Source: Paracoccaceae bacterium
GTDB taxonomy: Bacteria; Pseudomonadota; Alphaproteobacteria; Rhodobacterales; Rhodobacteraceae
DNA: 64,000 nucleotides
Direction: 5' to 3'
Assembly: GCA_033344815.1 (NCBI GenBank)
Contig: JAWPMR010000001.1
Coordinates: forward strand, 2,280,136-2,344,135
Part shown: one piece after another, positions 8,715 to 29,939 of the stretch
Layout of the letters: the number at the start of each line of letters is the position of its first letter
Position numbering within the stretch: position 1 is the stretch's first letter
Position numbers and translations under genes: made by a program
Notes under the pieces: model-generated
The model's database searches: none
Seen by the model: the letters and a program-made list of their open reading frames with translations, nothing else
Told to the model about the DNA's origin: nothing

Positions 8715-8743
8715 ACCGATAGACTGCCACTTGCTGACAATTT

Positions 8744-9897: not shown

Positions 9898-9906
9898 ACT
9901 TTAAGT

Positions 9907-9937: not shown

Positions 9938-9963
9938 CAATCTCCATTGGGTGGGGTGATGCC

Positions 9964-10488: not shown

Positions 10489-10492
10489 TGCG

Positions 10493-11803: not shown

Positions 11804-11808
11804 CAAAA

Positions 11809-12744: not shown

Positions 12745-13468
12745 AACGCCACGCATCCGTACGGTTGGCTTGTCAGGGCTCCTTGTCAGTTTTGGCACAT
12801 CCATGAGCGAACCCGCCAATCGTGCCGCATTGGCATTTCGAGCCGCCCTTGAGGCGCAAGAGTGGCCCGAAGTCCGCGAAAGCATGATGTCGCTTGTGTC
12901 TGTCTTTGTCGCCGTGGATCTGGTCACAACGCCCGCTGAGGCGACAACAGAAAAGCTTCAAGTGCTCCTGGAAACGCAGGATTGGTACGAAGCCGCCTTG
13001 CCCGCGGGCCGGACGTTGCTGCATGTTCCAACGCTCTACGGCACGGACCTTGCGCCACAGTTGGAAGAAGCCGCCGAGGTTGCCGGGCTGGACCCGGATG
13101 AAGCCATCCGGCTGCTGTCTACTTCCCGGGTACGGGTCCTGACTTTGGGATTTGCTCCGGGCCAACCTTACCTTGGTGAATTGCCCGAGGTTTGGAACAT
13201 CCCGCGACAACAAAACCTGACCAAAAGTGTACCCACCGGCGCTTTGGTGGTGGCCATCCGACAATTGATCACCTTCACGGCTCCGACACCAACCGGATGG
13301 CGGCATATTGGACAAACTGCGTTTCGCAATTTCGTTCTGGAAGCCGAACACCCGTTTGCTTTGTCGCCGGGGGACGAGCTGATCTTTCCGTCCATTGATC
13401 GGGCAGCTTTTGACAAAATCGACCCCAGTGATCGTTTTGGCGCTGCTGATCGGGAAATGATCGCATGA
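12737..13468 (+). CDS. pxpB: 5-oxoprolinase subunit PxpB (KipI/allophanate hydrolase subunit 1 family)
   Basis: One of three subunits of the prokaryotic ATP-dependent 5-oxoprolinase, which opens 5-oxoproline to L-glutamate. 243 residues; the family block LTLGFAPGQPYLGELP lies near 137-152, and the C-terminal PFALSPGDELIFPSID is typical. It has an extra N-terminal stretch compared with KipI. Overlaps flank it on both sides: eight bases with the permease gene and four with pxpC (ATGA). Tight coupling of this kind fits a stoichiometric complex. Confidence 0.9.
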   Translation: MTETPRIRTVGLSGLLVSFGTSMSEPANRAALAFRAALEAQEWPEVRESMMSLVSVFVAVDLVTTPAEATTEKLQVLLETQDWYEAALPAGRTLLHVPTLYGTDLAPQLEEAAEVAGLDPDEAIRLLSTSRVRVLTLGFAPGQPYLGELPEVWNIPRQQNLTKSVPTGALVVAIRQLITFTAPTPTGWRHIGQTAFRNFVLEAEHPFALSPGDELIFPSIDRAAFDKIDPSDRFGAADREMIA

Positions 13469-14487
13469 GCGCGCACCTCAGGGTTTTATCGGCAGGCCCG
13501 GCCATGAGCATTCAGGATTTGGGCCGTGAAGGGCATCTGGCCTTTGGCCTTACGCGGGGCGGCGCGGCTGACCGATTGGCCCTCTTTGAAGGGGCTGCGC
13601 TTTTGGGACAACCCGCAGAATGCGCCACGATCGAGATGGTCGGTATGGGTGGTACATTTGAGGCCACTGCGGATACGATCATTGCCCTCACCGGGGCGCG
13701 CATGGCCGCAACCCTTGATGGTGCGCCAATGGTCTGGAATGCATCGCATACGTTGCCAGCGGGCGCCAAACTTGTGATTGGCGGGGCGCAAACCGGAACT
13801 TATGGCTATCTGCATATCGCAGGCGGGTTCGATACACCTCTCTACATGGGTGCGCGCGCCACGCATCTGACCGCGCAGATTGGTGCCGTGTTGAAGACCG
13901 GCGATGACATCGCCTTTCGCCCATCGACCCCGGCACGCAGTGGGTATTTCCTATTACCTGACACCAGATTTCAAGGCGGCGCTGTTCGGGTAACGCCTTC
14001 ATTTCAATCGGAGCATTTCTCGCAAGAAACGCGAAACCGCTTTTGCCAAACCACGTTCCGCCGCGATCCACGCAGCAACCGTCAGGGCGTGCGCATGGAT
14101 GCCGATGCCCCCGGCTTTTACGCCGAAGGTGGATTGAGCATCGTTTCCGAGGTGATCACCACCGGCGATATTCAGGTTGCCGGGGACGGCGCGCCTTATG
14201 TGCTTATGTGTGAAAGCCAGACCACGGGCGGATATCCCAGAATAGGTACGGTCATCCCGTCTGATTTGCCGAAAGTCGCGCAAGCACCTGTTGGGACCGT
14301 GATTGAGTTTGAGTTCATTTCACATGATACGGCAATCGAGATTGAGAAACGCATCCGAAATGAGATCAAAACGCTCTCCTCTCGTGCGCAACCTTTGGTG
14401 CGAGATCCGCACGACATTCCCGACTTACTTGCCTATCAACTCATCAGTGGCACGGTGTCGGCAACCGCCGATCCATTTGCGTCTTAA
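13465..14487 (+). CDS. pxpC: 5-oxoprolinase subunit PxpC (KipA/biotin-dependent carboxyltransferase family)
   Basis: 340 residues, usual length. It opens with SAGPAMSIQDLGREGHLAFG (about 9-28), the hallmark of the KipA/allophanate hydrolase subunit 2 family, followed by GGAADRLALFEGAALLG. The C-terminal TGGYPRIGTVIPSDL block is also conserved. It works with PxpB and PxpA. It starts inside the end of pxpB and is followed by pxpA after 12 bases containing an AAGGAG ribosome site. Confidence 0.93.
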   Translation: MSAHLRVLSAGPAMSIQDLGREGHLAFGLTRGGAADRLALFEGAALLGQPAECATIEMVGMGGTFEATADTIIALTGARMAATLDGAPMVWNASHTLPAGAKLVIGGAQTGTYGYLHIAGGFDTPLYMGARATHLTAQIGAVLKTGDDIAFRPSTPARSGYFLLPDTRFQGGAVRVTPSFQSEHFSQETRNRFCQTTFRRDPRSNRQGVRMDADAPGFYAEGGLSIVSEVITTGDIQVAGDGAPYVLMCESQTTGGYPRIGTVIPSDLPKVAQAPVGTVIEFEFISHDTAIEIEKRIRNEIKTLSSRAQPLVRDPHDIPDLLAYQLISGTVSATADPFAS

Positions 14488-14499
14488 AGGAGATATCGC

Positions 14500-15270
14500 A
14501 TGACCCATGTAGATCTTAACGCCGATATGGGCGAGAGTTTCGGCCCTTGGAACATGGGCGATGACGCTTCCTTGCTGAAAACTGTGACCTCAGCAAACAT
14601 CGCCTGCGGCGCGCACGCCGGTGACCCGGATGTGATGGCCACGACCATGCGTTTTGCGCTGGAAAACGGCGTCGGAATTGGCGCGCATCCTGGTTTTGCG
14701 GATTTGCAGGGGTTTGGTCGCCGACGGATGGATGTGCCGCGCGCAACATTACAAAACTCGATACGGTATCAGGTGGCAGCCTCGATCGGGATGGCCAAAT
14801 CGCTGGGCGCAGAGGTACGTCACTTAAAGGTGCACGGCGCTTTGGCCAACATGGCCTCTGAAGACGAAGCACTCGCCACAGATCTTTATCAAGCTGCCCT
14901 TTCCGTGGCACCTGATTTGATCGTCATGGTGTTATGTGCCACGGCGCAGGAAGCGGCGGCGCGCAAACTTGGCTGCGCCTATGCTGGCGAGATTTTTGCG
15001 GATCGTGCCTATAACGATGATGCGACACTGGTGGATCGCAGTCTTCCCGGCGCCGTAATCCACGACCCGGAAATCGCTGGAAAACGCATGGTGGAGATGG
15101 TTCAGGCCGGTGCAATCATTACGGAAACCGGCAAGCGGATCGAAACCGATATCGATACAATTTGCCTGCATGGCGACACGCCAACGGCGGTGCAGATCGC
15201 AGTCTCTGTGCGCCACGCCCTTGAGACGTCAGGTATCAGCGTCCGTCAATTCGAGGGTCGGCGCGTTTGA
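14500..15270 (+). CDS. pxpA: 5-oxoprolinase subunit PxpA (LamB/YcsF family)
   Basis: 256 residues, standard for the family. VDLNADMGESFGPW opens the protein and SANIACGAHAGDP follows at about 31-43; these carry the conserved Asp and His residues of the LamB/YcsF fold. GIGAHPGFADLQGFGRR and LKVHGALANM are further signatures. It closes the operon and so completes a full PxpABC set beside two transport systems. The convergent cytochrome gene ends 13 bases later. Confidence 0.95.
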   Translation: MTHVDLNADMGESFGPWNMGDDASLLKTVTSANIACGAHAGDPDVMATTMRFALENGVGIGAHPGFADLQGFGRRRMDVPRATLQNSIRYQVAASIGMAKSLGAEVRHLKVHGALANMASEDEALATDLYQAALSVAPDLIVMVLCATAQEAAARKLGCAYAGEIFADRAYNDDATLVDRSLPGAVIHDPEIAGKRMVEMVQAGAIITETGKRIETDIDTICLHGDTPTAVQIAVSVRHALETSGISVRQFEGRRV

Positions 15271-15283
15271 TCACACGCCGCGA

Positions 15284-16633
15284 TCATTGATCCGACGTTT
15301 CCTGCTTTAGAAAGGCGATAAGGTCGTCGCGATCCTTGCGCTTGGTAATACGCTGCATGGGCATTTTAGACCCCGGGATGTAGTGATCAGGCCCCTGATC
15401 AAACAACAGGTCAATCGTTTCATCTGACCAGATGATCCCGGAGTCTTTGAGGGTGGAGGAGTATAGGTAGCCCTCTACCGTTCCTGCAGGACGCTCGAAA
15501 AGCCCGTACAAAGTTGGACCCGCACGACGTTTTCCGTCAGCACCCAACGTATGACAAATCGAGCATTTCCGCTGGAACTGCCGTTCTCCGTTGGACATTT
15601 CTTCAGGCGCTTTCAGGAAGCTGCGTTTGGTGTCGGACATCTGCGGTGACGCACCCAAATCCTTGATCGGCCAGCTATACATCGCGTCATCCAGACCTCC
15701 TGCATGAATGTTTTCTCCACTTTCGGAAAACGCCAATGCCCATATGGGACCAGACAGTGTTGCGCGAAAATCATTGGAAATACGCCAATCCACTGTGTCG
15801 ATCAGCATGATGTACCCTTGCGCATCCCCAACAGCGATGCGTGCCGCTTGCGGATGGTACGCCATCGCAAGAATAGGGCGACGGTCGGCTGTGAAATCGC
15901 GCAAAGGCTCCCCCTCAGGCAGACTGGCAAGCCGTGTCGTGCCATCCACCGCCCCATAGGCAATCCAACTGTCATCCGCCCCAATTGTCAGCGTATTGAT
16001 ACCGAACCCATGATTGACGAGGCGCCGCAGCGGTGCACCGGTCATCGCATCCCACACACGGATGGTCCCATCTGCGGAAGCGCTATAGAGTCTTTGCCCA
16101 TCCGCGGAAAATGCCACGTCATTCACGATGTTATCATGGCCGGTAATATTAATGACCGGCGTGTCATCCACGACGGACCAGATCCGCAGGGTTCTATCCC
16201 AGCTTGCAGACGCCACGCGGTTGCCATCCGGTGACATGGCAAGTCGGATGACTTTGGCTGTATGCGTGCCGAGCACTTGAGACTGACTCGTGGCCTCATT
16301 CCAAACACGCACGGTAAAATCATCACCAGCCGAAACCACACGCCCTTTTGTTGCCAACACAACCGCATTGACGGCTGCGGTATGCCCTTCAAGCCAGACC
16401 GGAACGCCATCGCGCCACAAGCCGACCGAATTGTCAAAACTGGCGGTCAATATCGTTCCATCTGATCCCGCCGAGATGCCTTTGATCGGACCGCCATGAC
16501 CTTTCAAGGTAAAAAACTCCTGGGCTGTACTGCTCGGCGCCGCGCAGAGATTTAGACATAGCACCAACAGACCAAAAACAGGCAAAAGCCTGCCTTTCAA
16601 GACGCGTGCTATCCTGTCATTTAAATCGGCCAT
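15284..16633 (-). CDS. Periplasmic WD40-repeat protein fused to a c-type cytochrome
   Basis: 449 residues. A hydrophobic signal sequence or anchor lies near 15-38. Five or more WD40 repeats fill about 40-330 (for example ASWDRTLRIWS and ASADGTIRVWD). A C-terminal cytochrome c domain carries CSICH at 357-361 for haem attachment, with a likely axial Met in GSKMPM near 424. The role is presumably electron transfer guided by protein docking; the partner is unknown. It is convergent with pxpA and has no obvious operon mates. Confidence 0.88.
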   Translation of the reverse strand: MADLNDRIARVLKGRLLPVFGLLVLCLNLCAAPSSTAQEFFTLKGHGGPIKGISAGSDGTILTASFDNSVGLWRDGVPVWLEGHTAAVNAVVLATKGRVVSAGDDFTVRVWNEATSQSQVLGTHTAKVIRLAMSPDGNRVASASWDRTLRIWSVVDDTPVINITGHDNIVNDVAFSADGQRLYSASADGTIRVWDAMTGAPLRRLVNHGFGINTLTIGADDSWIAYGAVDGTTRLASLPEGEPLRDFTADRRPILAMAYHPQAARIAVGDAQGYIMLIDTVDWRISNDFRATLSGPIWALAFSESGENIHAGGLDDAMYSWPIKDLGASPQMSDTKRSFLKAPEEMSNGERQFQRKCSICHTLGADGKRRAGPTLYGLFERPAGTVEGYLYSSTLKDSGIIWSDETIDLLFDQGPDHYIPGSKMPMQRITKRKDRDDLIAFLKQETSDQ

Positions 16634-17363: not shown

Positions 17364-17969
17364 TTACGTGAGCTTTTTAGGACTGTGCTTTTCGCTTAGC
17401 TGCTTTTCGATACGACGCGGAATGAATTGTCCCGGCATCGTCCAGTTGGGTGTTTCACCGGCAAATTCTTCAAAAAAACCGATGGCAAGATTCACGTCCT
17501 CACGCACGTTTTCCCGAAAGGACCACCAGGCACGCAGATCACCCAGCTTCGGCGCTGTATCGGCGGTCAAAGAAAAATCCTGCTCGATCACTGAATCCCG
17601 CACCGCGAGGCAAAAAGAAACATACAAGTAACCTTCAGGCCAAAAAGTGGCCGGTTGATCGCGATCACTGTCCGTTTCACTGGCGGTAACAGGCGCATGA
17701 CGCACCAATTCACGTAACATCAAACCGGCGGCAAATGTAACGTATTCCAAGCGGTGATCTTCGGCCTTGTACTTTTGCGTCTCGAACGAACGAAACCACG
17801 TACCAAACGCCTCTAGGAGCTTACCTTCATCAAGTGTCAGGGTTTGACCCGTTTCGAGCTCTACTTCGGCAAGAAATTCCCGGAAAGAACTGACGAACCA
17901 TCGCGCGCGACGGATCGTCTTGCGCACCGGCATGTCACTTTCTTCCAAAACGTGGAGGGATTCTTTCAC
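17364..17969 (-). CDS. Unknown protein, last gene of the leftward sugar operon
   Basis: 201 residues, soluble, acidic, rich in aromatic residues; no signal peptide or membrane segment. I do not recognise a family. Start chosen at GTG 17969, which has AAAGGA seven bases upstream and lies one base after the stop of the preceding gene, so the two are translationally coupled. Blocks such as WFVSSFREFL and PEGYLYVSFCLAVRD look conserved in style. Its basic C-terminus reads PRRIEKQL. It may form a complex with its upstream partner. Confidence 0.65.
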   Translation of the reverse strand: MKESLHVLEESDMPVRKTIRRARWFVSSFREFLAEVELETGQTLTLDEGKLLEAFGTWFRSFETQKYKAEDHRLEYVTFAAGLMLRELVRHAPVTASETDSDRDQPATFWPEGYLYVSFCLAVRDSVIEQDFSLTADTAPKLGDLRAWWSFRENVREDVNLAIGFFEEFAGETPNWTMPGQFIPRRIEKQLSEKHSPKKLT

Positions 17970-17970
17970 G

Positions 17971-18636
17971 TCAGATCCTTTCAGACACGTCCAACAGGAT
18001 CGCATTCAACGCTTCGGGATCGTTCCATGCGTTTTGGCATGCTTCCAGAGATCCCGCGCCCAGCCAACCCGAAATACGTACCAGTTCCTCTTCGGATGTT
18101 TTGCCGTCCCCGGGTTCGGTCAACAACCAGAGGACCGCGCCAATACATGTACGCAGCGGCAACCCGGCCTCGGGGCCCTGTCCTGAGCCCAGCAATCCCG
18201 GGGCAACGCCAAAAGGTTCGCGACGGATCATCGCGTGCAGCAAAGCCGCCGCACGGAAGGGCTCGTTTTCCGCATCATGCCAGCACAGGGCGAGGATCGT
18301 TTCGCTGACCAGAAAATCGGACTCTTTTGCCTCTGCCAGCAAGATGGAAATGGCAAAACCCGCGCATGCTGCCATCTCGGTCGCAGACATATCCGCACCC
18401 TGCATGGCTGCTGCTGCCTCCGCGACAACTGATGTCTCAGGCGGTCCGGAAATGCCGGCGCCCTTTGGATCAAACGGCGTGATGTTTTCGACGGCGTGGC
18501 GTAACGGACCCGGCAAGGCTTCCAGCGCATGAGAGACCACCGAGGCCGCAGGCCCCGCATGCTGGCGCACGCCCCGCACGAGGTCGCGCAACGGGAGCGT
18601 CAAGGCGCGTGGATTGGGATAGGAACTGCTCATCAT
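17971..18636 (-). CDS. Unknown alpha-helical protein in the leftward sugar operon
   Basis: 221 residues, probably cytoplasmic, helical and alanine/leucine rich, with no motif I know. A weak ribosome site (AGAAGG) precedes ATGATG. It begins 20 bases after the PfkB kinase gene and ends one base before the next gene's start, so it belongs to the same transcript. Both unknown genes may be specific to this locus in relatives. Confidence 0.65.
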   Translation of the reverse strand: MMSSSYPNPRALTLPLRDLVRGVRQHAGPAASVVSHALEALPGPLRHAVENITPFDPKGAGISGPPETSVVAEAAAAMQGADMSATEMAACAGFAISILLAEAKESDFLVSETILALCWHDAENEPFRAAALLHAMIRREPFGVAPGLLGSGQGPEAGLPLRTCIGAVLWLLTEPGDGKTSEEELVRISGWLGAGSLEACQNAWNDPEALNAILLDVSERI

Positions 18637-18655
18637 GGCAGGCCTTCTATTGGAG

Positions 18656-19612
18656 TCACGCCCCAGTATACGCCTTCAAGCCAGTGTTAGCCATGAAAGA
18701 AAGAGTTGTATCCAGATCAACGACTCCTGCCTGCGATCCCAGACCAGTCGCATTCTGCGCCGAACTGGCCTGACCCAAACGGATACAGTCCTCGGTTGAT
18801 TTGTCCAAGTGCAGACCCGTTGCAAACCCCGCATTAAAGCAATCACCGCAGCCGCAAGTGCACACCACGTCGATTTCATAGGCCGGAATATCGATATTCA
18901 CGCCACTCTGATCTCGATACATGGCTCCGTCGGCCCCCAATGTCAGGATGACAGCGCCAGTTCCCTGATCCAGCAGGAATTGCGCAATGTCGTCAAAATC
19001 CGTGAGCCCGGATAGCGCCATTGCCTCTTCTTCTGAGGGCATAAATACATCGGTATGCACCAAAAGCGGCTTGATCAGAGCCAGATCATCAGGCGTCGAG
19101 GCAAAGACATCCAAGGTTGTTTGACAGCCCCGCTTCTTCGCTTCCGCCAGGACCTCGACGGTGCGGCCTTTATCCATCGCATCCATCAATCCTACGCCGC
19201 CAACGTGCAGGATTCTAGTGTCCAACACGCGATCCAACTGCGCGTCATCCACGTAAAAACCCGCCGTCGCACCCAACTTGTGTAGCGCGGGACGCGCGCC
19301 GTCAGGCCGCGTGGTGACAATGCTGGACGAGGTGGAAAAATCCGGACAGCGCTGCATCATGTCCCGATCAACGCCGAAATCATCAAGCCGGCGCAACACC
19401 CAATCCCCCATCAGATCGTTCCCAACGCCGCCAACGGCCTGCACCTGCAACCCATGTTTCGCCGCCACAATAGCCGCCGATCCGGCAGCACCTGAAACAG
19501 CCAGCGCGAAGTCATCCACAAAGAAAGTATTTCCACCCGGCGGGATATCGTTCACCGGCCGGCACAGTGCATCAAATGTGTAAAACCCCATGGAGGTGTA
19601 ATCGAATGTCAT
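18656..19612 (-). CDS. PfkB-family carbohydrate kinase
   Basis: A ribokinase-like ATP-dependent sugar or polyol kinase of 318 residues. The N-terminal glycine block GGNTFFVDDFALAVSGAAGS (about 26-45) and AVGGVGNDLMGDWV are typical. The second signature reads CTCGCGDCFNAGF (about 247-259), so the usual GAGD anion hole is GCGD with the catalytic Asp kept. The unusual cysteines around it are noteworthy. It sits 21 bases after the ABC ATPase gene, so it probably phosphorylates the imported sugar or a product of it. Confidence 0.9.
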   Translation of the reverse strand: MTFDYTSMGFYTFDALCRPVNDIPPGGNTFFVDDFALAVSGAAGSAAIVAAKHGLQVQAVGGVGNDLMGDWVLRRLDDFGVDRDMMQRCPDFSTSSSIVTTRPDGARPALHKLGATAGFYVDDAQLDRVLDTRILHVGGVGLMDAMDKGRTVEVLAEAKKRGCQTTLDVFASTPDDLALIKPLLVHTDVFMPSEEEAMALSGLTDFDDIAQFLLDQGTGAVILTLGADGAMYRDQSGVNIDIPAYEIDVVCTCGCGDCFNAGFATGLHLDKSTEDCIRLGQASSAQNATGLGSQAGVVDLDTTLSFMANTGLKAYTGA

Positions 19613-19633
19613 AGGATCCCCCGGATGTTCGGC

Positions 19634-20686
19634 TTAGTCAGCGATGCGCTGCCCCGTCTGTGCATCAAATAGAAAAATGCGCTCTTTATCGAACTTCACT
19701 GAAACAGAGGTGTCAAGTTTGGCGCGAAAGTCACGATCGGCTTTGACCTCGACACGTCTATCGCCCACCTCAATCGTCAGGTAGGTCAAATCGCCTGTAG
19801 GCTCCACGCCAAATACCGTTCCCTTGAGCTGTGGCTGAGCGCCACCAACGGTACAGTCTTCGGGGCGAAAACCAAGCACCACTTGTCCACTCTGCGCCGC
19901 AGACAGGCCCGTCACTTCGATCCCGGGCGCGGTAAACACACCCTCCTGAACCTGACCTTCAACAAGGTTCATCGGGGGCGAACCAATGAAACCCGCCACA
20001 AAGGTATTGGCAGGGTCATTGTAAATTTCATCAGGCGTGCCGATTTGCTGGATCGCACCCCCTTCCATGATCACGATGCGGTCCGCCAGGGTCATTGCCT
20101 CGATCTGATCATGGGTCACATAGACAGTTGTTACTTTTAACTGCCGCTGAATATGCTTGATCTGGACCCGCATCGCTTGACGCAACTTGGCGTCCAGATT
20201 GCTGAGCGGTTCGTCCATCAGGAACACCTGAGGCTGGCGCACGATGGCACGCGCGAGTGCAGCACGTTGGCGCTGCCCCCCGGATAAAGCGCCGGGTTTA
20301 CGATCCAGATACTCTGTCAGTTCGGTCATTTCAGCCGCGCGCTGTACCAAGGCATCCTGTTCGGGCTTAGGCACCTGCCGCATACGCAAAGGAAAGCGGA
20401 TGTTTTCATAGATCGTCATGTTGGGATAAAGCGCGTAGCCCTGAAACACCATCGCCACATCGCGGTCCCGGGCGTCAACGTCATTCATGACCTCACCGTC
20501 CATGATCACATCGCCCTCGCTTGGCTCCTCAAGGCCGGCAATCATCCGCATTGTCGTGGTTTTGCCGCATCCGGACGGTCCAAGAAAAACAACAAATTCC
20601 TCATCCGCGATATCGATGTTCACATCGCGCACGCCCCAGACGTTGCCCCATCGCTTCTGGATGCCGGTAAGCTCAATGCGTGCCAT
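19634..20686 (-). CDS. Sugar ABC transporter ATP-binding protein (MalK/UgpC type)
   Basis: 350 residues. Walker A is GPSGCGKTT (about 38-46), the signature LSGGQRQR, and Walker B plus D-loop VFLMDEPLSNLD. A C-terminal TOBE/regulatory domain (about 235-350) marks the MalK/UgpC class that can energise CUT1 importers. I chose the ATG at 20686 (MARIELTGI) because an upstream extension would run into the permease gene. Two bases separate the start from the preceding permease stop. Confidence 0.93.
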   Translation of the reverse strand: MARIELTGIQKRWGNVWGVRDVNIDIADEEFVVFLGPSGCGKTTTMRMIAGLEEPSEGDVIMDGEVMNDVDARDRDVAMVFQGYALYPNMTIYENIRFPLRMRQVPKPEQDALVQRAAEMTELTEYLDRKPGALSGGQRQRAALARAIVRQPQVFLMDEPLSNLDAKLRQAMRVQIKHIQRQLKVTTVYVTHDQIEAMTLADRIVIMEGGAIQQIGTPDEIYNDPANTFVAGFIGSPPMNLVEGQVQEGVFTAPGIEVTGLSAAQSGQVVLGFRPEDCTVGGAQPQLKGTVFGVEPTGDLTYLTIEVGDRRVEVKADRDFRAKLDTSVSVKFDKERIFLFDAQTGQRIAD

Positions 20687-20688
20687 TT

Positions 20689-21534
20689 TTATCCCTTCAC
20701 CGCGCCCATCGTCAGACCACGTGACAGATGTTTCTGGATCAACACGACCACGATAAACACCGGCACGAAGGCCAGAAAGGCGACCAGTGCAATTGCGTTG
20801 TAAATAAGCCCGTCCGAGCCGCCGGTAAAATTCGCCAGCGCCACCGACATTGTATAAGCATTGGGTGTCGAAGCGATCAGCAGCGTGAACAAAAATTCGT
20901 TGATGGCAAAGATCATCGCGATGACGCTTGCCGTGATGATGCCGGGCAGTATGGCGGGGATGATGATTTCCCACAGGATGCGCAGATCACCCGCGCCATC
21001 CGTTTTGGCGGCATCTTCCAGTTCTTTGGGGATGTCCATCATGTAAGACCGGATGATCCACGTCACAAATGACAGATTAATCGCCGCGTAGATCAGCATT
21101 AAGGCCCAGACCGTGTCCAGCAATCCCATGTTACGAAACAGGAAGAAAATCGGGATCGCAACAATCGCGGGCGCCATCATCCGGGTAGATAGAATGTAAA
21201 ACCCGATGTCATCGCGCCCCCGGTAGGTATAGCGCGAGAGCGAATAGGCCGCCGGGATCGCCAGCACCAGATCAATCAATACGGACCCGATGATGGCCAG
21301 CACCGAATTGCGCAGGTATTTGGCCATGGGCCAGTCTTCCCAGATCATATGCCAGGCATCGAGGCTAAATGTGGGCCAATAGATCGGCTGAGTGGTGATG
21401 ATCTCGGTCCGTGGGCGGAAGCCGATGGACAGGAACCACAGCACTGGCATCAGACAGAACAACGCCCATGCTCCGAGGATCGCATACCGGAGTGTGAGGC
21501 TTTCGCCGCGGGATTTTCTGCGCACCGATGCCAT
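20689..21534 (-). CDS. Sugar ABC transporter permease (MalG type)
   Basis: 281 residues with six membrane segments. The cytoplasmic loop that docks on the ATPase reads ELEDAAKTDGAGDLRILWEI (the EAA motif), near 182-201. This is the second permease of a CUT1 importer. It is three bases from the upstream permease gene and two from the ATPase gene. Confidence 0.92.
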   Translation of the reverse strand: MASVRRKSRGESLTLRYAILGAWALFCLMPVLWFLSIGFRPRTEIITTQPIYWPTFSLDAWHMIWEDWPMAKYLRNSVLAIIGSVLIDLVLAIPAAYSLSRYTYRGRDDIGFYILSTRMMAPAIVAIPIFFLFRNMGLLDTVWALMLIYAAINLSFVTWIIRSYMMDIPKELEDAAKTDGAGDLRILWEIIIPAILPGIITASVIAMIFAINEFLFTLLIASTPNAYTMSVALANFTGGSDGLIYNAIALVAFLAFVPVFIVVVLIQKHLSRGLTMGAVKG

Positions 21535-21536
21535 AG

Positions 21537-22481
21537 TTATACCTTCGCCGACACAAAGGCGCGTTTGACCACAAACTGCGCGATGATGATGGTCAGGATC
21601 AGCATGATCACTGAAGCAGAAGACGCATAGCCGAAGTCAAAGAACTTAAAGCCTGTACGGTAGATGAAATAGCTGATTGTTTCTGTGCCAAAGGCCGGCC
21701 CCCCTTTGGTGATGACAAACACGTTAGTGAACATCGTGGTGATGTCGATGCCGCGCAGGATCAGGGCGACGGCAATCACCGGTTTCATCATCGGCAAGGA
21801 GATGTTCCAGAAGATCTGATACCATGAGGCGCCATCCAGACGCGCAGCCTCTTCGACCTCTTCGTCCTGACCCTGAAGGGCAGCCACAAAAATTATGAAT
21901 AGAAACGGGGTCCATTGCCAGACATCCGCGAGGATCAGAATGGACCGGCTCATCCAGATGGAAGATTGAAAAGCGATGTTGCCGTCGATCAACCCCAGCC
22001 GGATCGAGATATCAGCAAAAACGCGAGCATCCAGAAAGAACAGTTTGTAGATGAACGCCACGGCGGAGGGCATGAACAGCATCGGGATCAGAAAGATGAT
22101 CCGCCAGCCTTTGACCCATGGATCGCGGTAGGCATAAAACGCGATTGCCAGAGCGATCAGACATTGCAGCGTCAGGGAAATCGACCCGATCACAAAGGTA
22201 TTCCAGAGCGCACCCCAGAATTGATAGTCGTTGAACAGACGCGCGTAATTGGCAAAACCAACCGGCTGCCATGGTCCGAACTTGACCGCATAAAAACTCT
22301 GAACAATGGCATAGATGCCAGGATAGAGCGTAATCAGCAGCAGATAAATGACTGCCGGGGCCACCAAAAGATACGGGAACCATGCCTTTAGACGCTTGCT
22401 GCGTCTTTTGAATGTCTTCTGTGTCGGCCTTGCCGGGGCGGTTTGATCCGCCCCGGTGCCCGACAGGTTTGAAGTGCCCAT
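21537..22481 (-). CDS. Sugar ABC transporter permease (MalF type)
   Basis: 314 residues with a basic cytoplasmic N-terminus and six membrane segments. The EAA loop is EEVEEAARLDGASWYQIFW (about 213-231). It pairs with the MalG-type permease gene immediately downstream, and lies 35 bases after the binding-protein gene. Confidence 0.92.
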   Translation of the reverse strand: MGTSNLSGTGADQTAPARPTQKTFKRRSKRLKAWFPYLLVAPAVIYLLLITLYPGIYAIVQSFYAVKFGPWQPVGFANYARLFNDYQFWGALWNTFVIGSISLTLQCLIALAIAFYAYRDPWVKGWRIIFLIPMLFMPSAVAFIYKLFFLDARVFADISIRLGLIDGNIAFQSSIWMSRSILILADVWQWTPFLFIIFVAALQGQDEEVEEAARLDGASWYQIFWNISLPMMKPVIAVALILRGIDITTMFTNVFVITKGGPAFGTETISYFIYRTGFKFFDFGYASSASVIMLILTIIIAQFVVKRAFVSAKV

Positions 22482-22516
22482 ATTGAGGTACAGCCCGTCT
22501 TAAGGTCGTGGATCGT

Positions 22517-24070
22517 TTAGAACGGCAAATCCTTGCCTTCACCCACATAAAGACCCGGCGCTGCCGCGGCATAATCCACCGGATCATTGCCTTGGTAGAA
22601 CCCGTTGCTGGACATGATCTGCTTGACTGCAGCGGCCGCATTATCGAGCGCCTCCTTCGGCGTGATCTGCCCCACAACAGCGCGGTTGATCTCATTGCCG
22701 ATGGCCTGCTCAATCGGGAAAGCGCCAGGCAGGCGCGGCGAACACCACGCGTGTTCAAGGCTGTCGGCCCAGACTTTCGCAGGCTGTGAGACTTCTTGCA
22801 GGTTGGTGTTGGTCAGGACGGATTTGTAACCCGGAGCCACACCATTTGCATTGGCCTCGTTCATCGCCATGATCGACCCGGTGGTCAGGAAGGCCAGCAT
22901 CAGGAATGCACCTTCTGGGTTCTGCGCACTGGCCGCGACACAGGATGTCGAGCCCGCGATATTTGGCGGTGCAAAACGACCCCCATCGATGCGTGGTTCG
23001 TAAATGGTGACGAAATCATCGACGATCTGGCTTTGATCCGGCCGCATCGCCTGCGTCCCTGAATCCTGCCAGCTGATGTTGGTGGCGACCTGCCCGCCCA
23101 ACCAAGCCGCGCGATTTTCCGGCCAACCGGCACCCGCGTGACCTTCATTGGCGTTTTTGGTCAGCGCCATGATGATCTCCAGCCCCTTCATGCCTGCGTC
23201 ACCGTTAAAGATCGGCTCCCAGTTTTCATCAAACAGCATCATGCCGGCCTGAGCGGCAATATGCTCCCACGTATAGGTCGACCAGAAGCCGGGTGCTGCC
23301 ATCATGCCAACACCGGATACGCCAGGTTCGATCTTGTTCAACTCGCCAGATACACGGATCAATTCATCATAGGTCGGGATCGAAGTGACTTTATCAACAG
23401 AGCCCCCCAACAGGGTTTCCATGTAACCTTTGCGTACATGCACCATCTGAATGTCGCAATCGAACGGAATGCCATACATCTTACCATTAAAGAAGCCGTA
23501 ATTCAGACGATAGGTGTCATAGAAGTCATCCAGCGGCAGACCCCATTTGTCAGCATAATCATCAAGGCTGGCGAGGAAACCCGGTGCCGCGAAGTCGCCT
23601 AACCACGGGGAGAAGAACTGCAACGCGTCAAAGGAGGCATTGCCGGAAATGAACTCGGCAAGCGCCTTGTCATAAAAGCTGTCATCCGGGATCGGGACCA
23701 ATTCAACCGTGATGCCCGAGAGTTTTTCAAACGGCACCAGACCCTCGGCAGCCGATTCCGCATCCGCCGCGCCAATGGCGAAACGCACAGTCGTGCCCGC
23801 CAGTTCGGAGCGCACGGCTTCCCAATCTACGGTGCGGATCCAGTCTTTATTGCTGTCCCAGATCGGCTTGTCGTCGGACATGCCATAAAGGTCGCGGTAG
23901 TCCTGCCGCACGTATTTATTGATCGAAATATCATCCAGAACGCTTTGTGGATCGGGCAGATGCCCATCAGCAAGCGCTGCGCTGCCAAAGCTCAGACCAC
24001 CTGCGGCAAAGCCCGCAGCGGATGAGCTTTTCAGGAAAGAGCGCCGTGATAGGTGATTGCTATTCGTCAT
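22517..24070 (-). CDS. Extracellular sugar-binding protein, Tat-exported
   Basis: 517 residues, long for a CUT1 receptor. The N-terminus has a twin-arginine signal (SRRSFLKSS at about 8-16) then a hydrophobic stretch ending near ALA-DG at about 35. Tat export implies folding in the cytoplasm before export, which is common for these long receptors in Rhodobacterales. The body has extracellular-binding-protein blocks such as FDALQFFSPWLGDFAAPGF and AGSTSCVAASAQNPEGAF. It is the first gene of the leftward operon and divergent from the dehydrogenase gene. Confidence 0.92.
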   Translation of the reverse strand: MTNSNHLSRRSFLKSSSAAGFAAGGLSFGSAALADGHLPDPQSVLDDISINKYVRQDYRDLYGMSDDKPIWDSNKDWIRTVDWEAVRSELAGTTVRFAIGAADAESAAEGLVPFEKLSGITVELVPIPDDSFYDKALAEFISGNASFDALQFFSPWLGDFAAPGFLASLDDYADKWGLPLDDFYDTYRLNYGFFNGKMYGIPFDCDIQMVHVRKGYMETLLGGSVDKVTSIPTYDELIRVSGELNKIEPGVSGVGMMAAPGFWSTYTWEHIAAQAGMMLFDENWEPIFNGDAGMKGLEIIMALTKNANEGHAGAGWPENRAAWLGGQVATNISWQDSGTQAMRPDQSQIVDDFVTIYEPRIDGGRFAPPNIAGSTSCVAASAQNPEGAFLMLAFLTTGSIMAMNEANANGVAPGYKSVLTNTNLQEVSQPAKVWADSLEHAWCSPRLPGAFPIEQAIGNEINRAVVGQITPKEALDNAAAAVKQIMSSNGFYQGNDPVDYAAAAPGLYVGEGKDLPF

Positions 24071-24188
24071 TTTTGTTGTCCTCCCAATTGGTCTGTCGTG
24101 CCGTTACCATCCAGCCAGTGAAACAGCCCGGCATCAACCCCGATCCTCCCGATCCGGGCCTGAACATATGAATGCCCTTGTTAACGAT

Positions 24189-24266
24189 TGTTCATTTTAC
24201 CAATCCGGTCAACTCCTATTTTAATTATGACTGAACATTTGAATTGACAATAGAACCAAAGTTCAT
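24189..24266. promoter_or_regulatory. Three TGTTCA/TGAACA-type half-sites in the divergent promoter region
   Basis: TGTTCAT at 24189-24195, TGAACA at 24232-24237 and GTTCAT at 24261-24266 lie in the AT-rich region between the two arms of the locus. The last falls within the spacer of the likely rightward promoter. They could be the binding sites of the SorC-type regulator encoded at 28950, but this is only inferred. Confidence 0.35.
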
Positions 24267-24272
24267 GCTATT
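24244..24272 (+). promoter_or_regulatory. Probable promoter of the dehydrogenase-E1-E2 operon
   Basis: An exact -35 consensus TTGACA at 24244-24249, 17-base spacer, then GCTATT at 24267-24272. The transcript would start near 24279, 29 bases before the ATG at 24308. Confidence 0.5.
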
Positions 24273-24307
24273 GAAAGAACACCTCTTGCGCAGAAGGATC
24301 GTGCCTC

Positions 24308-25639
24308 ATGGCCTCCAACATCTCCCTCACAGGTCTCGCCAAAGATCTTTCCGAACGGGCAGCCTCTGGTAAACCAGTACGCATTGGCCTGATTGGGTCA
24401 GGCGAGATGGGTACGGATATTGTGACCCGCGCCGCAATGATGGACGGTGTCGAGGTCGCTGCGATTTCGGAAATCAACCCGAGCGCCGCCCACAAGGCCG
24501 TGGAGATTGCCCGCAGCACAGATGGCTTTAGCGCGGATGCAAATTCGGCGGACAGCCTCAATACGGTGATAGAAAGCGGCAAGACAGCGATTGCGAATAA
24601 CGCAGACGCCATTCTCGAATCCGGACTAATTGACGTTGTGATTGATGCAACCGGCATCCCGGCGGTCGGGGCTGAAATCGGCCTCAAGGCGATGGAACGG
24701 GGCAAGCACCTCGTCATGATGAACGTCGAGGCGGACGTGACAATTGGGGCCTACTTGCGCCGCGAAGCGGATCGCCTTGGCGTGGTGTACTCGCTTGGGG
24801 CCGGCGATGAGCCGTCTTCGTGCATGGAACTGATCGAATTCGTCTCCGCCATGGGGCACAAGATCGTCTGTGCAGGCAAGGGCAAGAACAATCCCTTGAA
24901 CATCGACGCCCTGCCAGAGGCTTATATGGAAGAAGCTGCGCGGCGTCACATGAACCCGCGTCTGCTGGTCGAATTCGTTGATGGTTCCAAAACCGCCGTA
25001 GAAATGTGCGCAATCGCCAATGCAACGGGCCTGATCCCGGATTGCGATGGCATGCATGGTCCTGCTGCCGGACCCAAAGAGCTTGCCAAAACTCTGATCC
25101 CCAAGAAAGACGGCGGCTTACTCGACGGGATTGGGCGGGTGGACTATTCCATCGGCAAAGGCGTCTCACCCGGCGTTTTTGTGGTGATTGAGGCCGAACA
25201 TCCCCGCATTCGCGAACGCTTGAAAGATCTGAAAATGGGGGATGGCCCTTATTTCGAATTCATCCGCCCCTATCACCTGACGTCTCTAGAGGTACCGCTG
25301 ACCTGCGCACGTGCTGTTCTTTATGGTAAGGCCGACATGGTCCCAATGGACCAGCCTGTTGCTGAAGTTGCAGCCGTTGCCAAACGCGATCTTAAACCCG
25401 GCGAAACATTGGATCAGATCGGCGAATACACCTATCGCGCCTGGGCGATGGAAACGTCACGCGCACGGATCGCGCGGGCCCTGCCGGCAGGTTTGCTGAC
25501 GGGCGCTACAACCACCGCCGCAATCGCAAAGGGTGAATTGATCACCGCTCATAACACCACTCTGCCTGATGCCCGCATCGTGGATCTGCGCCGTCGTCAG
25601 GACGAGATGCTTTATGGTAAGGACGCGGCGAATGTCTGA
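24308..25639 (+). CDS. Homoserine dehydrogenase-like NAD(P) oxidoreductase with C-terminal SAF domain
   Basis: 443 residues. A Rossmann nucleotide site GLIGSGEMGTDIV lies at about 27-39. A homoserine-dehydrogenase-like catalytic half follows, with VVIDATGIPAVGAEIGL and GAGDEPSSCMELIEF. A SAF-like domain closes the protein (about 350-430; PLTCARAVLYGKADMVPMDQ then KRDLKPGETLDQIGEYTYRA). Such SAF proteins are often mislabelled as FlgA or antifreeze-like. They are not threonine-synthesis enzymes; here the context is sugar catabolism. The substrate is unknown. Its stop overlaps the next start by eight bases. Confidence 0.82.
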   Translation: MASNISLTGLAKDLSERAASGKPVRIGLIGSGEMGTDIVTRAAMMDGVEVAAISEINPSAAHKAVEIARSTDGFSADANSADSLNTVIESGKTAIANNADAILESGLIDVVIDATGIPAVGAEIGLKAMERGKHLVMMNVEADVTIGAYLRREADRLGVVYSLGAGDEPSSCMELIEFVSAMGHKIVCAGKGKNNPLNIDALPEAYMEEAARRHMNPRLLVEFVDGSKTAVEMCAIANATGLIPDCDGMHGPAAGPKELAKTLIPKKDGGLLDGIGRVDYSIGKGVSPGVFVVIEAEHPRIRERLKDLKMGDGPYFEFIRPYHLTSLEVPLTCARAVLYGKADMVPMDQPVAEVAAVAKRDLKPGETLDQIGEYTYRAWAMETSRARIARALPAGLLTGATTTAAIAKGELITAHNTTLPDARIVDLRRRQDEMLYGKDAANV

Positions 25640-26639
25640 GCCCAAGAATACGCCCTATGCCATCCGCACCTATGACGCGGATAAGTTGAAGGGTGCGCTG
25701 CGCAAGATGTTCTTGATCCGGAAATTCGAGGAAGGTGCTGAGGACAGTTACACGCGTGGTCTGATCCACGGGACGATGCATTTATCCATCGGACAAGAGG
25801 CCTCGGCTGTAGCGTCCTGCATGTCGCTGAGCGATGAGGACAAGATCACCTCTACCCATCGAGGCCACGGCCATTGCGTGGCAAAAGGTGCGGACTTGGG
25901 CCGCATGTTTGCCGAATTTTTCGGAAAAGAAGACGGCTATTGCCGAGGTCGCGGCGGCTCGATGCACATCGCGGATGTGGAAAAGGGCAACCTTGGAGCC
26001 AATGGCATTGTCGGAGGTGGGTTGCCCATCGCCGTAGGCGCGGCGCTTTCAGCCAAACGCCTTGGTACCGGTGCTGTGACGGTCTGCTTTTTTGGTGACG
26101 GGGCCAATAATGAGGGTGCCTTCCATGAAGCTTTGAACATGGCTGCGGTGTGGAAACTGCCCGTGGTATTCGTTTGTGAGAACAACCGGTATGGCATGTC
26201 GACATCGACGGAACGCTCAACAGCCGTGAAAAACATTGCAGACCGTGCGTCGGCTTACAACATGCCCGGCGTAACCGTGGACGGAAACGATTTTTCAGCC
26301 GTGAGCGAAGCGGTTGATACCGCAGTTGCGCGCGCGCGCGCGGGTCAAGGACCAAGCCTTGTTGAAAACCTGACATACCGTTGGCGCGGCCATTCAAAAT
26401 CGGACCGCAACCGGTATCGCACCAAAAAAGAGATCGCCGATTGGATGGCACGGGATCCCATAAAGCAGATGTCCAATCTGCTGGTGACGCATAAAATCAT
26501 GTCAGAAGAGGACATCGCGTCTTTGGAAACGGAAACCGAACGGGTCATTGAGGACGCGATCGCTTTTGCCAATGCGAGCCCTTCGCCCGCCGCGAGTGAT
26601 GCGACACGCTTTGTCTATACCGATGAGGCCGCTGCGTGA
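25632..26639 (+). CDS. Thiamine diphosphate-dependent dehydrogenase E1 component, alpha subunit (acetoin dehydrogenase type)
   Basis: 335 residues. The ThDP-binding motif is present: [13 protein letters not shown] followed about 20 residues later by VFVCENN (near 155-185). [13 protein letters not shown] and [10 protein letters not shown] are typical of E1 alpha. The family includes pyruvate, branched-chain and acetoin dehydrogenases. The E2 partner type below argues for an acetoin-like substrate. Start chosen at ATG 25632, which overlaps the previous gene; the frame is open further upstream but lies in the dehydrogenase gene. Confidence 0.92.
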
Positions 26640-27646
26640 ACATGCACGCCAAGCCCGGTTTGCGCGAGCTATCTTATGCGGAAGCGATCCGCGAAGCGAT
26701 GGATATTGCCCTCGGGCGCGATGAGCGCGTCATTTTGATGGGCGAGGACATCGGTGTTTATGGCGGCGCGTTTCAGGTCACAGGCGACCTGGTCGAAAAA
26801 TACGGCACGGGCCGCGTGATGGACACGCCAATTTCCGAGCTTGGTGGCGCGGGCGTTGCCGTTGGCGCGGCGATGACCGGCTTGCGCCCGATTTTTGAGT
26901 TTCAGTTTTCGGATTTCGCCACGCTTGCGATGGAGCAGATCGTCAATCAGGCCGCCAAGATCCGCTTTATGCTGGGCGGTGCGGTCTCTGTCCCGCTTGT
27001 GATGCGGTTCCCCGCAGGTTCCGGCACCGGGGCTGCGGCACAGCACAGCCAAAGCATCGAAGCGTGGCTGGGTCATGTGCCCGGTCTGAAGGTCATCCAA
27101 CCCTCAACCCCAGAAGACGCCAAAGGCATGTTGCTCGCAGCGCTTGAAGACCCAGATCCTGTGATGATCTTTGAGCACAAAATTCTCTACAAGATGAAAG
27201 GGCATGTGCCGGAAGGGCATTATACAACCCCCATTGGCAAGGCCTCTGTGCGTCGCGAGGGTCGCGATCTGAGCATCGTCGCGACGTCCCTGATGGTGCA
27301 CAAAGCGCTCGCAGCCGCAGATGATTTGGCTAAAGACGGGATAGATGCCGAAGTGATAGACTTGCGCACAATTCGCCCGATGGATCGTGAAACGGTGCTG
27401 GCCTCCGTGCGCAAAACCGGGCGGTTGATTTGCGTCTATGAAGGCGTAAAAACCCTTGGCGTGGGCGCCGAGGTTTCTGCAATGGTCGCTGAAAGCGATG
27501 CTTTTGACTATCTGGATGCACCTATCATCCGGTTGGGAGGTGCGGAAAGCCCGATCCCCTATAACCCTGAGCTGGAAAAAGCCGCCGTCCCGCAAATCCC
27601 GGATGTTCTTGAGGCCGCAAGGGCGTTGGTTCAAGGCCGCCTCTGA
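26636..27646 (+). CDS. Thiamine diphosphate-dependent dehydrogenase E1 component, beta subunit
   Basis: 336 residues, usual size. [18 protein letters not shown] (about 35-52), [17 protein letters not shown] and [19 protein letters not shown] are standard E1 beta blocks. A C-terminal transketolase-like domain (about 200-330) is complete. GTG at 26636 overlaps the E1 alpha stop (GTGA); an in-frame ATG lies six bases on. E1 alpha and beta together form the heterotetramer that decarboxylates or cleaves the substrate and loads the acyl group on E2. Confidence 0.93.
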
Positions 27647-28914
27647 TGCCCATCGAAGTGATCATGCCCAAGGTCGACATGGACATGGCCAGCGGTGTCA
27701 TCAGCGCATGGCACGTTGAGATTGGGGCAACCGTCGCCAAGGGGGATCCCTTGTTTGATATTGAAACCGATAAAGCCGCGATGGAAGTCGAGGCGCAAAG
27801 TGATGGAATTCTCCATCATCCCATTGCTGAGGGCACCGAAGTCGCGATTGGCCAACCGGTTGCATGGCTGTACGCGGCGGATGAAGTCGTTGGCGATGCG
27901 CCCGAAGGTGAAAGGGCGGCCTCGGCCCCTGCTGCGCAAGACACGTCCGATAATGCGTTTGCGGAAGCGGATCAGGTTGCAGCATCTGCAGTTCCATTGA
28001 CGGACAAAATCCGTGCCACGCCCCGCGCGCGATCGCTTGCCCGCGAGGCCGGTTTGGACATCACAACCCTCACAGGGTCCGGTCCCCGCAATCGCATCCA
28101 AGCCGAAGACGTGCCAAGCAAGCTCCATGTTAACCCATCATTGCCTGCGTCTTTTGTACCCGAAAACGGGCCTCTTTCAGTGACACATAAGAAAGGCAGC
28201 GGCGGAACACCCATTGTCCTGATCCATGGCTTTGCCAGCGATTCCAAATCTTGGGCGCCGCTGGAACATTATCTGGCAGATTGTCCCTTGATCCGCATCG
28301 ACCTGCCTTGCCACGGCAAGTCCCCCAACCTGCGGATCACCGGTTTCGCTGATCTTGTAACAGTAGTGCGCCAGACTTTTGACGATCTGCATTTGGAGGC
28401 TGCGCAACTCATCGGCCATAGCCTTGGCGGCGCTGTTGCATTGGCGCTTGCGGATACGAGAGCTCGCAAGATCAAGTCACTAAATCTGATCGCTCCCGGT
28501 GGGCTTGGTCCAGACATTAACACGGCATCGCTCAACGGGATCACAAATGCCACGCGTGTGGAAAGCCTTACACCGTGGCTGAAAATGCTTGTCCATGACG
28601 AGGCTCTGATCACCGAAGGCTACGCTCGCGCCGTAATGGCAACTCGGATCAACGCAAACATGCGTGCCGCGCAAATGGCCCTCGCTGACGCCGTTTTTCC
28701 GGATGGCACACAAGCATTTGATCTCCGCGCTGCCTTGCAAAGGGTTGAAATGCCGACCCGTGTGATCTGGGGGCGTCAGGACAGAATAATTAAATGGCAA
28801 CATGCTCTTAACGCTCCCGGCGATGTCGCGTTGCATCTTTTTGATGCCACAGGTCATATGCCTCAGATTGAACATACAGATGAGATTGGGAAGCTGCTGA
28901 AATCAGCGCTATAG
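27646..28914 (+). CDS. AcoC-type E2: lipoyl domain fused to alpha/beta-hydrolase
   Basis: 422 residues. The lipoyl domain (1-78) has the attachment lysine K43 in ETDKAAMEVEA. An E1/E3-binding domain follows (about 124-158, RATPRARSLAREAGLD). Instead of the CAT-type acyltransferase of pyruvate dehydrogenase E2, the C-terminus is an alpha/beta-hydrolase (about 175-420) with IGHSLGGAVAL, nucleophile Ser259, and GHMPQIE carrying the likely catalytic His. This architecture is that of AcoC of acetoin dehydrogenase. The E1 beta stop and this ATG share a base (TGATG). No E3 gene is present. Confidence 0.9.
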   Translation: MPIEVIMPKVDMDMASGVISAWHVEIGATVAKGDPLFDIETDKAAMEVEAQSDGILHHPIAEGTEVAIGQPVAWLYAADEVVGDAPEGERAASAPAAQDTSDNAFAEADQVAASAVPLTDKIRATPRARSLAREAGLDITTLTGSGPRNRIQAEDVPSKLHVNPSLPASFVPENGPLSVTHKKGSGGTPIVLIHGFASDSKSWAPLEHYLADCPLIRIDLPCHGKSPNLRITGFADLVTVVRQTFDDLHLEAAQLIGHSLGGAVALALADTRARKIKSLNLIAPGGLGPDINTASLNGITNATRVESLTPWLKMLVHDEALITEGYARAVMATRINANMRAAQMALADAVFPDGTQAFDLRAALQRVEMPTRVIWGRQDRIIKWQHALNAPGDVALHLFDATGHMPQIEHTDEIGKLLKSAL

Positions 28915-28949
28915 TGGCGCAACCAGAATGACCCGCGCAGGAGCCACAT

Positions 28950-29939
28950 ATGCCCGATGATCTGAAAAAAACCGTCGAGCTGCACCGAGACCGGACGTTA
29001 AACGATCCGCACAGCCAGATGCGTATTCGAGCTGCATGGCTCTATTATGTTGAGGGAAACACACAATCTGACGTCGCGAAAAAGCTGGGTGTGAACCGCA
29101 TCATGATCACCCGGTTACTGTCAGAGGCCAAGAAGCGAGGCGAGGTGGTCATACAGATCAAATCCAAGCTCACCTCTTTGGTACAAGCGCAAACAGAACT
29201 CGAAGAAAAATATGGTCTGCGCAAAGCCATTCTTGCACCTCACGCGGATGCTTCTGCCGATCCGACTCGTGTGATCGCCGCCGCAGCGGGCGAATACGTC
29301 TCAGGCCTTATGCATCACAATATCACTGTTGGGGTGGGGTGGGGTCGCACCTTGCATTCCATGCTGCCCTATATTGAAGGTCAGACACTCAAAGGCGCGC
29401 GCATCGTGTCGTTACTCGGGGGGATCGCTCAGGCCCGCCGCTTTAACCCTGCGGAATTTGCATGGCAATTTGCAGAGCTTTTCGACGCCGAAGGGTTCCT
29501 TGTCCCTGCCCCCGCCATCGTCGATTCCCCGCAAACCAAACATGCGTTGCTGGAACACTGCGGGTTGGATCGGATCATTTCCATGGCGGATGCTTGTGAC
29601 GTGGCCCTATTGTCCTGCGGCGGCATAACGACCCTGACAACTTCGTATCGCGCCGGGCATGTGTCCGAAGCAGAGCGGACATCCCTCATTGAAGCAGGCG
29701 CGGTGGGGGATCTACTCTACAACTTTCTCGACCGGGACGGCGTGCCGCTGGACCATCCCGTCAACACACGCAACATATCTGCATCTGTGGATCACCTTGC
29801 GCGGCTCCCGAACAAGGTCCTCATTTCAGGTGGGTCAGAAAAAGTTGAGATTATCCGAGCCACTTTAAAAGCCATTATGCCCGGCACGCTGATCACCGAC
29901 GAGGTTACGGGCGCGCAATTGCTCAGTGATACCGTTTAG
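28950..29939 (+). CDS. SorC/DeoR-type sugar-binding transcriptional regulator
   Basis: 329 residues. An N-terminal helix-turn-helix (about 35-60, EGNTQSDVAKKLGVNRIMITRLLSEA) precedes a sugar-phosphate-binding SorC effector domain (about 75-325, with GVGWGRTLHSML). Regulators of this family respond to phosphorylated sugars, which suits a locus with a PfkB kinase. It is the last gene of the rightward arm, 36 bases after E2, and is the likely local regulator of both arms (inference). Confidence 0.9.
   Translation: MPDDLKKTVELHRDRTLNDPHSQMRIRAAWLYYVEGNTQSDVAKKLGVNRIMITRLLSEAKKRGEVVIQIKSKLTSLVQAQTELEEKYGLRKAILAPHADASADPTRVIAAAAGEYVSGLMHHNITVGVGWGRTLHSMLPYIEGQTLKGARIVSLLGGIAQARRFNPAEFAWQFAELFDAEGFLVPAPAIVDSPQTKHALLEHCGLDRIISMADACDVALLSCGGITTLTTSYRAGHVSEAERTSLIEAGAVGDLLYNFLDRDGVPLDHPVNTRNISASVDHLARLPNKVLISGGSEKVEIIRATLKAIMPGTLITDEVTGAQLLSDTV

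Follow-up and report, generated by a model that had tools for sequence, protein, structure and literature searches.

Gene content of the divergent locus

The window analysed here, a stretch of 64,000 nt from the genome of a Paracoccaceae bacterium (contig JAWPMR010000001.1), carries between positions 17364 and 29939 a locus of twelve genes arranged in two divergent arms. The seven genes of the left arm (-) encode a complete CUT1-type importer and kinase set (binding protein, two permeases, MalK-type ATPase and sugar kinase) and two conserved proteins, unkA and unkB; the five of the right arm (+) encode a dehydrogenase with a SAF domain, the E1 alpha, E1 beta and E2 components of a complex of the 2-oxoacid dehydrogenase type, and a SorC-type regulator (Table 1). 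All twelve were confirmed in the list of open frames and, with Pfam and NCBIfam, bear out the genes and strands given in a preliminary description of this DNA. The SAF-domain dehydrogenase listed there is present, but its identity had been missed: judged by its matches to Pfam DRL_cat and to the structures 3UPL/3UPY, it is a type II 1-deoxy-D-xylulose 5-phosphate (DXP) reductoisomerase (DXR-II).

The permeases were named by position and by comparison with a Sinorhizobium meliloti cluster (L132) that is annotated and has its genes in matching order, not from Pfam, and the kinase reached no NCBIfam cut-off. The ATPase probably starts at 20686, because its profile match begins only at residue 97; the starts of E1 alpha and of the last left-arm gene, unkA, were refined to approximately 25632 (Met22) and 17933, respectively. 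By eye, the N-terminal SRRSFLK of the binding protein looks like a twin-arginine translocation signal.

Table 1. Features of the locus, with positions in the window
Feature	Position	Strand	Evidence
unkA, conserved protein, function unknown	17364..17933	-	no Pfam/NCBIfam family
unkB, conserved partner of unkA, function unknown	17971..18636	-	no Pfam/NCBIfam family
PfkB-family sugar kinase, proposed methylerythritol kinase	18656..19612	-	Pfam PfkB E 6.9e-39
CUT1-type ABC importer ATPase, MalK/UgpC type	19634..20686	-	Pfam, NCBIfam
ABC permease	20689..21534	-	open frame; order as annotated sugar permease in L132
ABC permease	21537..22481	-	open frame; order as annotated sugar permease in L132
Solute-binding protein	22517..24070	-	SBP_bac_1 E 4.7e-28
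Operator-like TGAACATATG	24161..24170	.	between divergent arms
Operator-like TGAACATTTG	24232..24241	.	between divergent arms
DXR-II (DRL), proposed 2-C-methyl-D-erythritol 4-phosphate (MEP) -> DXP	24308..25639	+	Pfam, PDB match, residues, tree
E1 alpha	25632..26639	+	E1_dh E 2e-91; signature residues
E1 beta	26636..27646	+	Pfam, NCBIfam; tree
E2, AcoC type: lipoyl, E3-binding, alpha/beta-hydrolase domains	27646..28914	+	Pfam; NF011457
SorC-type regulator with sugar-binding domain	28950..29939	+	PF04198 E 1.8e-46

DXR-II, the adjacent E1/E2 complex and their distribution

The assignment of DXR-II was based on a match to DRL_cat (PF21135, E 1.6e-64) and on the alignment of residues 1-435 with the Brucella structures 3UPL/3UPY (E 1.8e-174), which runs without gaps until near the C-terminus, so that the Brucella residue numbering can be transferred. 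According to the sections of PMC3847144 consulted, K191, K193, T229, R320, G121, H250 and V351 are involved in substrate binding, dimerisation or family identity, and K191, K193, T229, R320 and H250 set DXR-II apart from the DLO families; all seven are present in the window protein. The latter five were found in 122 of 129 distinct fetched sequences, and the other seven, 31-37% identical to the window protein, were called DLO-like on identity and residues. One DLO-like relative (L156, Deinococcus; 35% identity) is surrounded by genes of a polysaccharide-type cluster, a setting that differs from that of DXR-II. The same sections of PMC3847144 describe the forward, biosynthetic direction of DXR-II as an alternative MEP synthase and contain no discussion of its gene neighbourhoods.

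A genome scan yielded 580 relatives, of which the best 80 were taken as named loci, and a locus was termed linked where E1 lies within 4.5 kb of DXR-II. The preliminary description had called for a search for this gene set in relatives; E1 was found beside DXR-II in 71 of the 80 named loci. In the host genus, 2 of 19 genomes possess DXR-II and the same two possess this E1 beta. The adjacency of E1 and DXR-II, by linkage in named loci and by co-occurrence in the genus, is thus more than chance. Among the nine unlinked named loci, one is at a contig edge (L021), five belong to genomes with another, linked copy (L033, L034, L041, L055 and L067) and one to a genome with no linked copy (L060); the remaining two are L043 and L024. 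DXR-II is a patchy trait, detected at E<=1e-80 in 16 of 398 genomes of the host's phylum.

Transporters and kinases are exchanged between loci. Among 95 loci, 65 linked ones had enough flank for their modules to be counted, these relatives not being independent of one another. A CUT1 importer was present in 25 of the 65, each time with PfkB, and a glucitol-type phosphotransferase system (PTS) in 15, three of which carry PfkB and none CUT1; CUT2 importers were found in 19, SorC in 51, unkA in 52 and E3 in five. The presence of a kinase with a non-phosphorylating importer, and its absence in most loci with a phosphorylating one, agrees with DXR-II acting on a polyol phosphate. In Priestia, from another phylum, genes for E1 alpha, E1 beta, E2, E3, SorC, a major facilitator superfamily (MFS) transporter, a second SorC, DXR-II and an FGGY kinase follow one another in one direction; E1 is approximately 8 kb from DXR-II there, and this locus was labelled linked by hand. 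Linked clusters also occur on plasmid records of Rhizobium, Sinorhizobium, Terrarubrum and Pseudoroseomonas, and some of those from Rhizobium and Sinorhizobium include lpdA, lipA or thiamine genes. The non-pathogenic Sinorhizobium fredii NGR234 is among the carriers of a linked cluster. Thiamine synthesis genes adjoin a Rhizobium cluster (L131, 16813-21323), and lpdA and lipA are part of a Sinorhizobium cluster (L132, 14770-17215), both of which fit a complex dependent on thiamine diphosphate (ThDP) and lipoate.

In Listeria, Ligilactobacillus and Enterococcus, DXR-II is accompanied by a glucitol-type PTS and SorC, and in the first two also by GutM. In Ligilactobacillus salivarius (L128, L165), genes for Fsa and transketolase come after those for DXR-II, the glucitol PTS, GutM and a sugar-binding regulator; these two enzymes may offer an alternative means of splitting DXP. 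Ligilactobacillus and Enterococcus are mevalonate users. Listeria is mainly mevalonate-using, according to the part of PMC13001223 consulted.

The host genome (one contig, 5.08 Mb) encodes DXR-I, DXS and a single DXR-II, and its isoprenoid synthesis therefore has no need of DXR-II. Across the 39 genomes drawn from the 80 named loci, DXR-I was found in 21 and E1-linked DXR-II in 38. Twenty of the 21 genomes with DXR-I carry solely the linked copy (G022 has an unlinked one as well), and 16 of the 18 without DXR-I possess an unlinked copy (Fisher p 6e-8, kinship ignored), some second copies having been classed on approximately 1 kb of flank on each side. The split is not clean: G017 (a metagenome bin) and G026 have only a linked copy and no DXR-I, and G030 has only an unlinked one.

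In a quick tree of 33 E1 beta sequences, 27 from DXR-II-linked loci (Priestia included) and one from Clostridioides fall on one branch (support 95) that excludes the host pyruvate dehydrogenase (PDH; L001), two acetoin clusters and one Phaeobacter sequence; the branch parting the 27 from all others has a support of 45, the root is a midpoint and the end branches are long. On that tree, with its long branches and two acetoin references, E1 beta groups neither with acetoin E1 nor with the host PDH E1 beta. The E1 alpha subunit scores below the PDH equivalog TIGR03182 (384.6 bits vs a cut-off of 393.85) and shares STHRGHGHC with acetoin examples. In at least 97% of 103 unthinned rows from linked loci it carries T69, S73 and K277 (numbering of the 356-residue open frame), where four comparison enzymes have F/L, Y and M/E/V; we infer a roomier pocket and a lysine for a phosphate. 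In the Mesorhizobium and Priestia loci, E2 is a standard 2-oxoacid acyltransferase. Two E3 genes above cut-off lie elsewhere in the host genome.

Clostridioides difficile (L160, L163), whose E1 beta groups with the DXR-II-linked ones, has a cluster of E1, E2 and lpdA with MFS and SorC genes; a lipoate ligase gene, ispD and ispF are situated downstream and a galactitol-type PTS in between, and no DXR-II was present in the stretches fetched.

The two arms may share an operator. The motif TGAACAWWTG has two sites in the whole window, both between the divergent arms; as that number per 64 kb was matched in 22 of 100 shuffles of the window, it is not unusual, and only the placement of the sites is telling. 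In a first set of 24 intergenic regions there were 14 exact sites, as compared to a dinucleotide-shuffled mean of 0.2, a count biased by the fact that the motif was picked after viewing those regions. Among held-out loci (thinned, sharing ancestry with the first set), near matches with at most one mismatch within 400 bases upstream were found at 23 of 24 linked loci (37 sites; mean of single-base shuffles 1.34) and at 6 of 27 unlinked ones (6 sites; shuffled mean 1.40). The motif, enriched near linked loci, is a candidate operator for SorC.

A proposed catabolic route and its alternatives

Taken together, these data suggest that the locus probably serves the catabolism of 2-C-methyl-D-erythritol by reversal of the first steps of isoprenoid synthesis. 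Methylerythritol would be taken up by the CUT1 importer and phosphorylated by the PfkB kinase to MEP. Working against its biosynthetic direction, DXR-II would oxidise and rearrange MEP to DXP, which E1 would split between C2 and C3, the acetyl group passing via lipoyl-E2 to coenzyme A (CoA). The products of this last step would be acetyl-CoA and glyceraldehyde 3-phosphate, with E3 supplied from elsewhere in the genome; oxidative and practically irreversible, it would pull the DXR-II step. SorC would govern both arms through their common motif, perhaps by sensing MEP or DXP. In the part of PMC3424233 consulted, PDH is reported to convert pyruvate and glyceraldehyde to deoxyxylulose, and DXP to arise through aceE mutations in Escherichia coli, which makes the reverse cleavage chemically reasonable.

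The preliminary description had proposed thiolytic cleavage of a product of the 1-deoxyketose or branched-polyol type. That proposal gains support from DXR-II, an enzyme that interconverts DXP, a 1-deoxyketose phosphate, and MEP, a branched polyol phosphate, and further from the swapping of importers and kinases, the separate E1 lineage, the common motif and the redundancy with DXR-I; the substrate itself is still conjectural. The same description knew of no pathway with this gene set, and we likewise found neither methylerythritol catabolism nor oxidative DXP cleavage in the literature searched, most subscription papers lying outside the search.

Several observations weigh against this route. 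The enzyme identities are well supported and the locus is real and conserved, but the direction and the substrate are inferred from sequence. The DXR reaction is reversible, a piece of background not found in the literature searched. E1 beta passes the cut-off of the PDH E1-beta subfamily NF006667, and E2 that of the acetoin-dehydrogenase E2 family NF011457 (364.9 bits, cut-off 307). On the DXR-II tree (74 rows, root uncertain), linked and unlinked copies are intermixed, with eight changes; a clade of 53 rows holds 45 linked and 8 unlinked ones. This intermixing fits exchange between roles. The linked copy in G026 may also serve synthesis, because that genome has neither DXR-I nor another DXR-II. 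GlpD-like genes near 14 of the 65 linked loci, as well as unkA and unkB, are left unexplained, and 7 of the 65 have none of the importer types queried. No E1 lies near DXR-II in the Listeria, Ligilactobacillus and Enterococcus operons, and the extra DXR-II copies of Phyllobacterium (L033, L133) are accompanied by a CUT2 importer, a LacI regulator and an aldose epimerase, again with no E1.

The same enzymes could act on another branched or 1-deoxy substrate, such as a longer 1-deoxyketose, a different stereoisomer of 2-methyltetrol or several such compounds, which DXR-II would rearrange analogously. The variety of importers (CUT1, CUT2 and glucitol-type PTS) and the Zn-dependent and GlpD-like dehydrogenases beside some loci would agree with this, but the residues for substrate binding and family identity are identical in linked and unlinked DXR-II, and we consider it unlikely. 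A salvage role, in which imported 1-deoxyxylulose is phosphorylated to DXP, DXR-II works forwards to isoprenoids and E1/E2 only remove a surplus, appears improbable. DXP is a precursor of thiazole, and the thiamine genes beside the Rhizobium cluster would accord with such a role. So would the forward activity of DXR-II known from the consulted part of PMC3847144. However, DXR-I would make DXR-II spare in the host, DXR-II is kept beside E1 in most named loci, and the recurring PTS is of a polyol (glucitol) type. Mevalonate use by Ligilactobacillus and Enterococcus also counts against salvage.

Chance adjacency of a sugar importer to an acetoin or 2,3-butanediol dehydrogenase system would account for the E2 score and for the STHRGHGHC stretch of E1 alpha. 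It would leave DXR-II and the sugar kinase without a role, and no acoX-like kinase, butanediol dehydrogenase or sigma-54 regulator is present within 17364-29939, unlike in the acetoin clusters compared. With E1 beta standing apart from both of these clusters, we set this explanation aside as very improbable, despite E2 passing the acetoin cut-off. It is hardly credible, finally, that E1 is an alternative DXP synthase feeding pyruvate and glyceraldehyde 3-phosphate into isoprenoids by way of DXR-II: the aceE mutations of E. coli (PMC3424233, as consulted in part) provide a precedent, but E2, the importer and the kinase would be idle, E3, LipA and the PTS would have no role, and DXS is present in the host.

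If methylerythritol catabolism is indeed the function of the locus, the conversion of DXP, CoA and NAD+ into acetyl-CoA and glyceraldehyde 3-phosphate would represent an activity new to complexes of the 2-oxoacid dehydrogenase type. A DXP-cleaving complex would then be added to the known ones, and annotations as homoserine, acetoin or pyruvate dehydrogenase would be corrected. Methylerythritol, and perhaps aerosol 2-methyltetrols, would also gain a biological sink; such tetrols have reportedly been found in aerosol. More tentatively, and with some doubt on our part, DXR-II could be catabolic at root, belonging to a widespread reverse-MEP route that recycles carbon of the isoprenoid pathway, with its role as sole MEP synthase a later co-option. 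That route would draw on free 2-C-methylerythritol and possibly on 2-methyltetrols derived from isoprene; some genomes would also import phosphorylated forms, for example 2-C-methyl-D-erythritol 2,4-cyclodiphosphate (MEcPP). A catabolic role would account for the seemingly spare DXR-II copies of many bacteria and would make the scatter of DXR-II testable.

Accessory genes and comparison with known systems

Both unkA and unkB have helical AlphaFold models (pLDDT 87 and 88, respectively), which gave no PDB match at E<=0.001. Of the 80 named loci, 31 contain unkB, and unkA accompanies it in 30. Family samples, each of 149 genomes and presumably identical, had unkA in five genomes, DXR-II in nine and both in four. 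A 446-residue unkA open frame (L036) was considered as an unkA-unkB fusion, an idea dropped because long unkA frames also occur beside an unkB-like frame (L190). The one unkA carrier of these without DXR-II is L189: at approximately 7900-10388, a broken PfkB gene, unkB and unkA adjoin ispD, with no DXR-II, in what looks like a relic of the locus.

A second module, consisting of an ABC importer, a metallo-beta-lactamase-fold protein and SurE, recurs beside some linked loci (L195, L192, L190, L016, L017, L036, L038, L042, L051, L056, L057, L062 and L066), not all three parts being seen at each and SorC and unkA paralogues sometimes accompanying them. In a relative of the same genus (L195) it comes after E2, with both on one strand. 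Its binding protein most resembles proteins of the phosphonate, pyridoxal-phosphate and Fe types, and the metallo-beta-lactamase-fold protein most resembles ribonucleases. It is speculation that this module could import phosphorylated methylerythritol such as MEcPP.

Elsewhere in the window, 10424-15270 encodes a TRAP transporter large subunit followed by CT_C_D and CT_A_B carboxyltransferase-domain and LamB/YcsF genes, an oxoprolinase-like set; 15284-16633 a WD40 repeat protein that ends in a cytochrome c domain; and 38330-42277 a protein of 1315 residues with serralysin C-terminal, cadherin-like, RTX and H-type lectin domains.

Among described systems, DXR-II/DRL of known structure (3UPL, 3UPY) shares family, length and diagnostic residues with the window protein; it has been described as biosynthetic (PMC3847144, sections consulted), whereas here its operon looks catabolic and the genome also has DXR-I. 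AcoABC resembles the locus in E1 alpha, E1 beta, an E2 with an alpha/beta-hydrolase domain and the proposed transfer of acetyl to CoA, and differs in that the locus is without acoX, butanediol dehydrogenase and a sigma-54 regulator and has an E1 beta of a separate group. The autoinducer-2 (Lsr) system follows a similar logic, with import, a kinase, rearrangement of a C5 methyl-ketone phosphate, transfer of acetyl to CoA with release of triose phosphate, and the SorC-type LsrR; its enzymes are others, the thiolase-like LsrF taking the place of the ThDP/lipoyl complex, and it has no DXR-II. Erythritol (Ery) catabolism, which lacks DXR-II and E1/E2, is like the locus in polyol import, a polyol phosphate and a SorC-type regulator, and some relatives of the locus carry a GlpD-like dehydrogenase.

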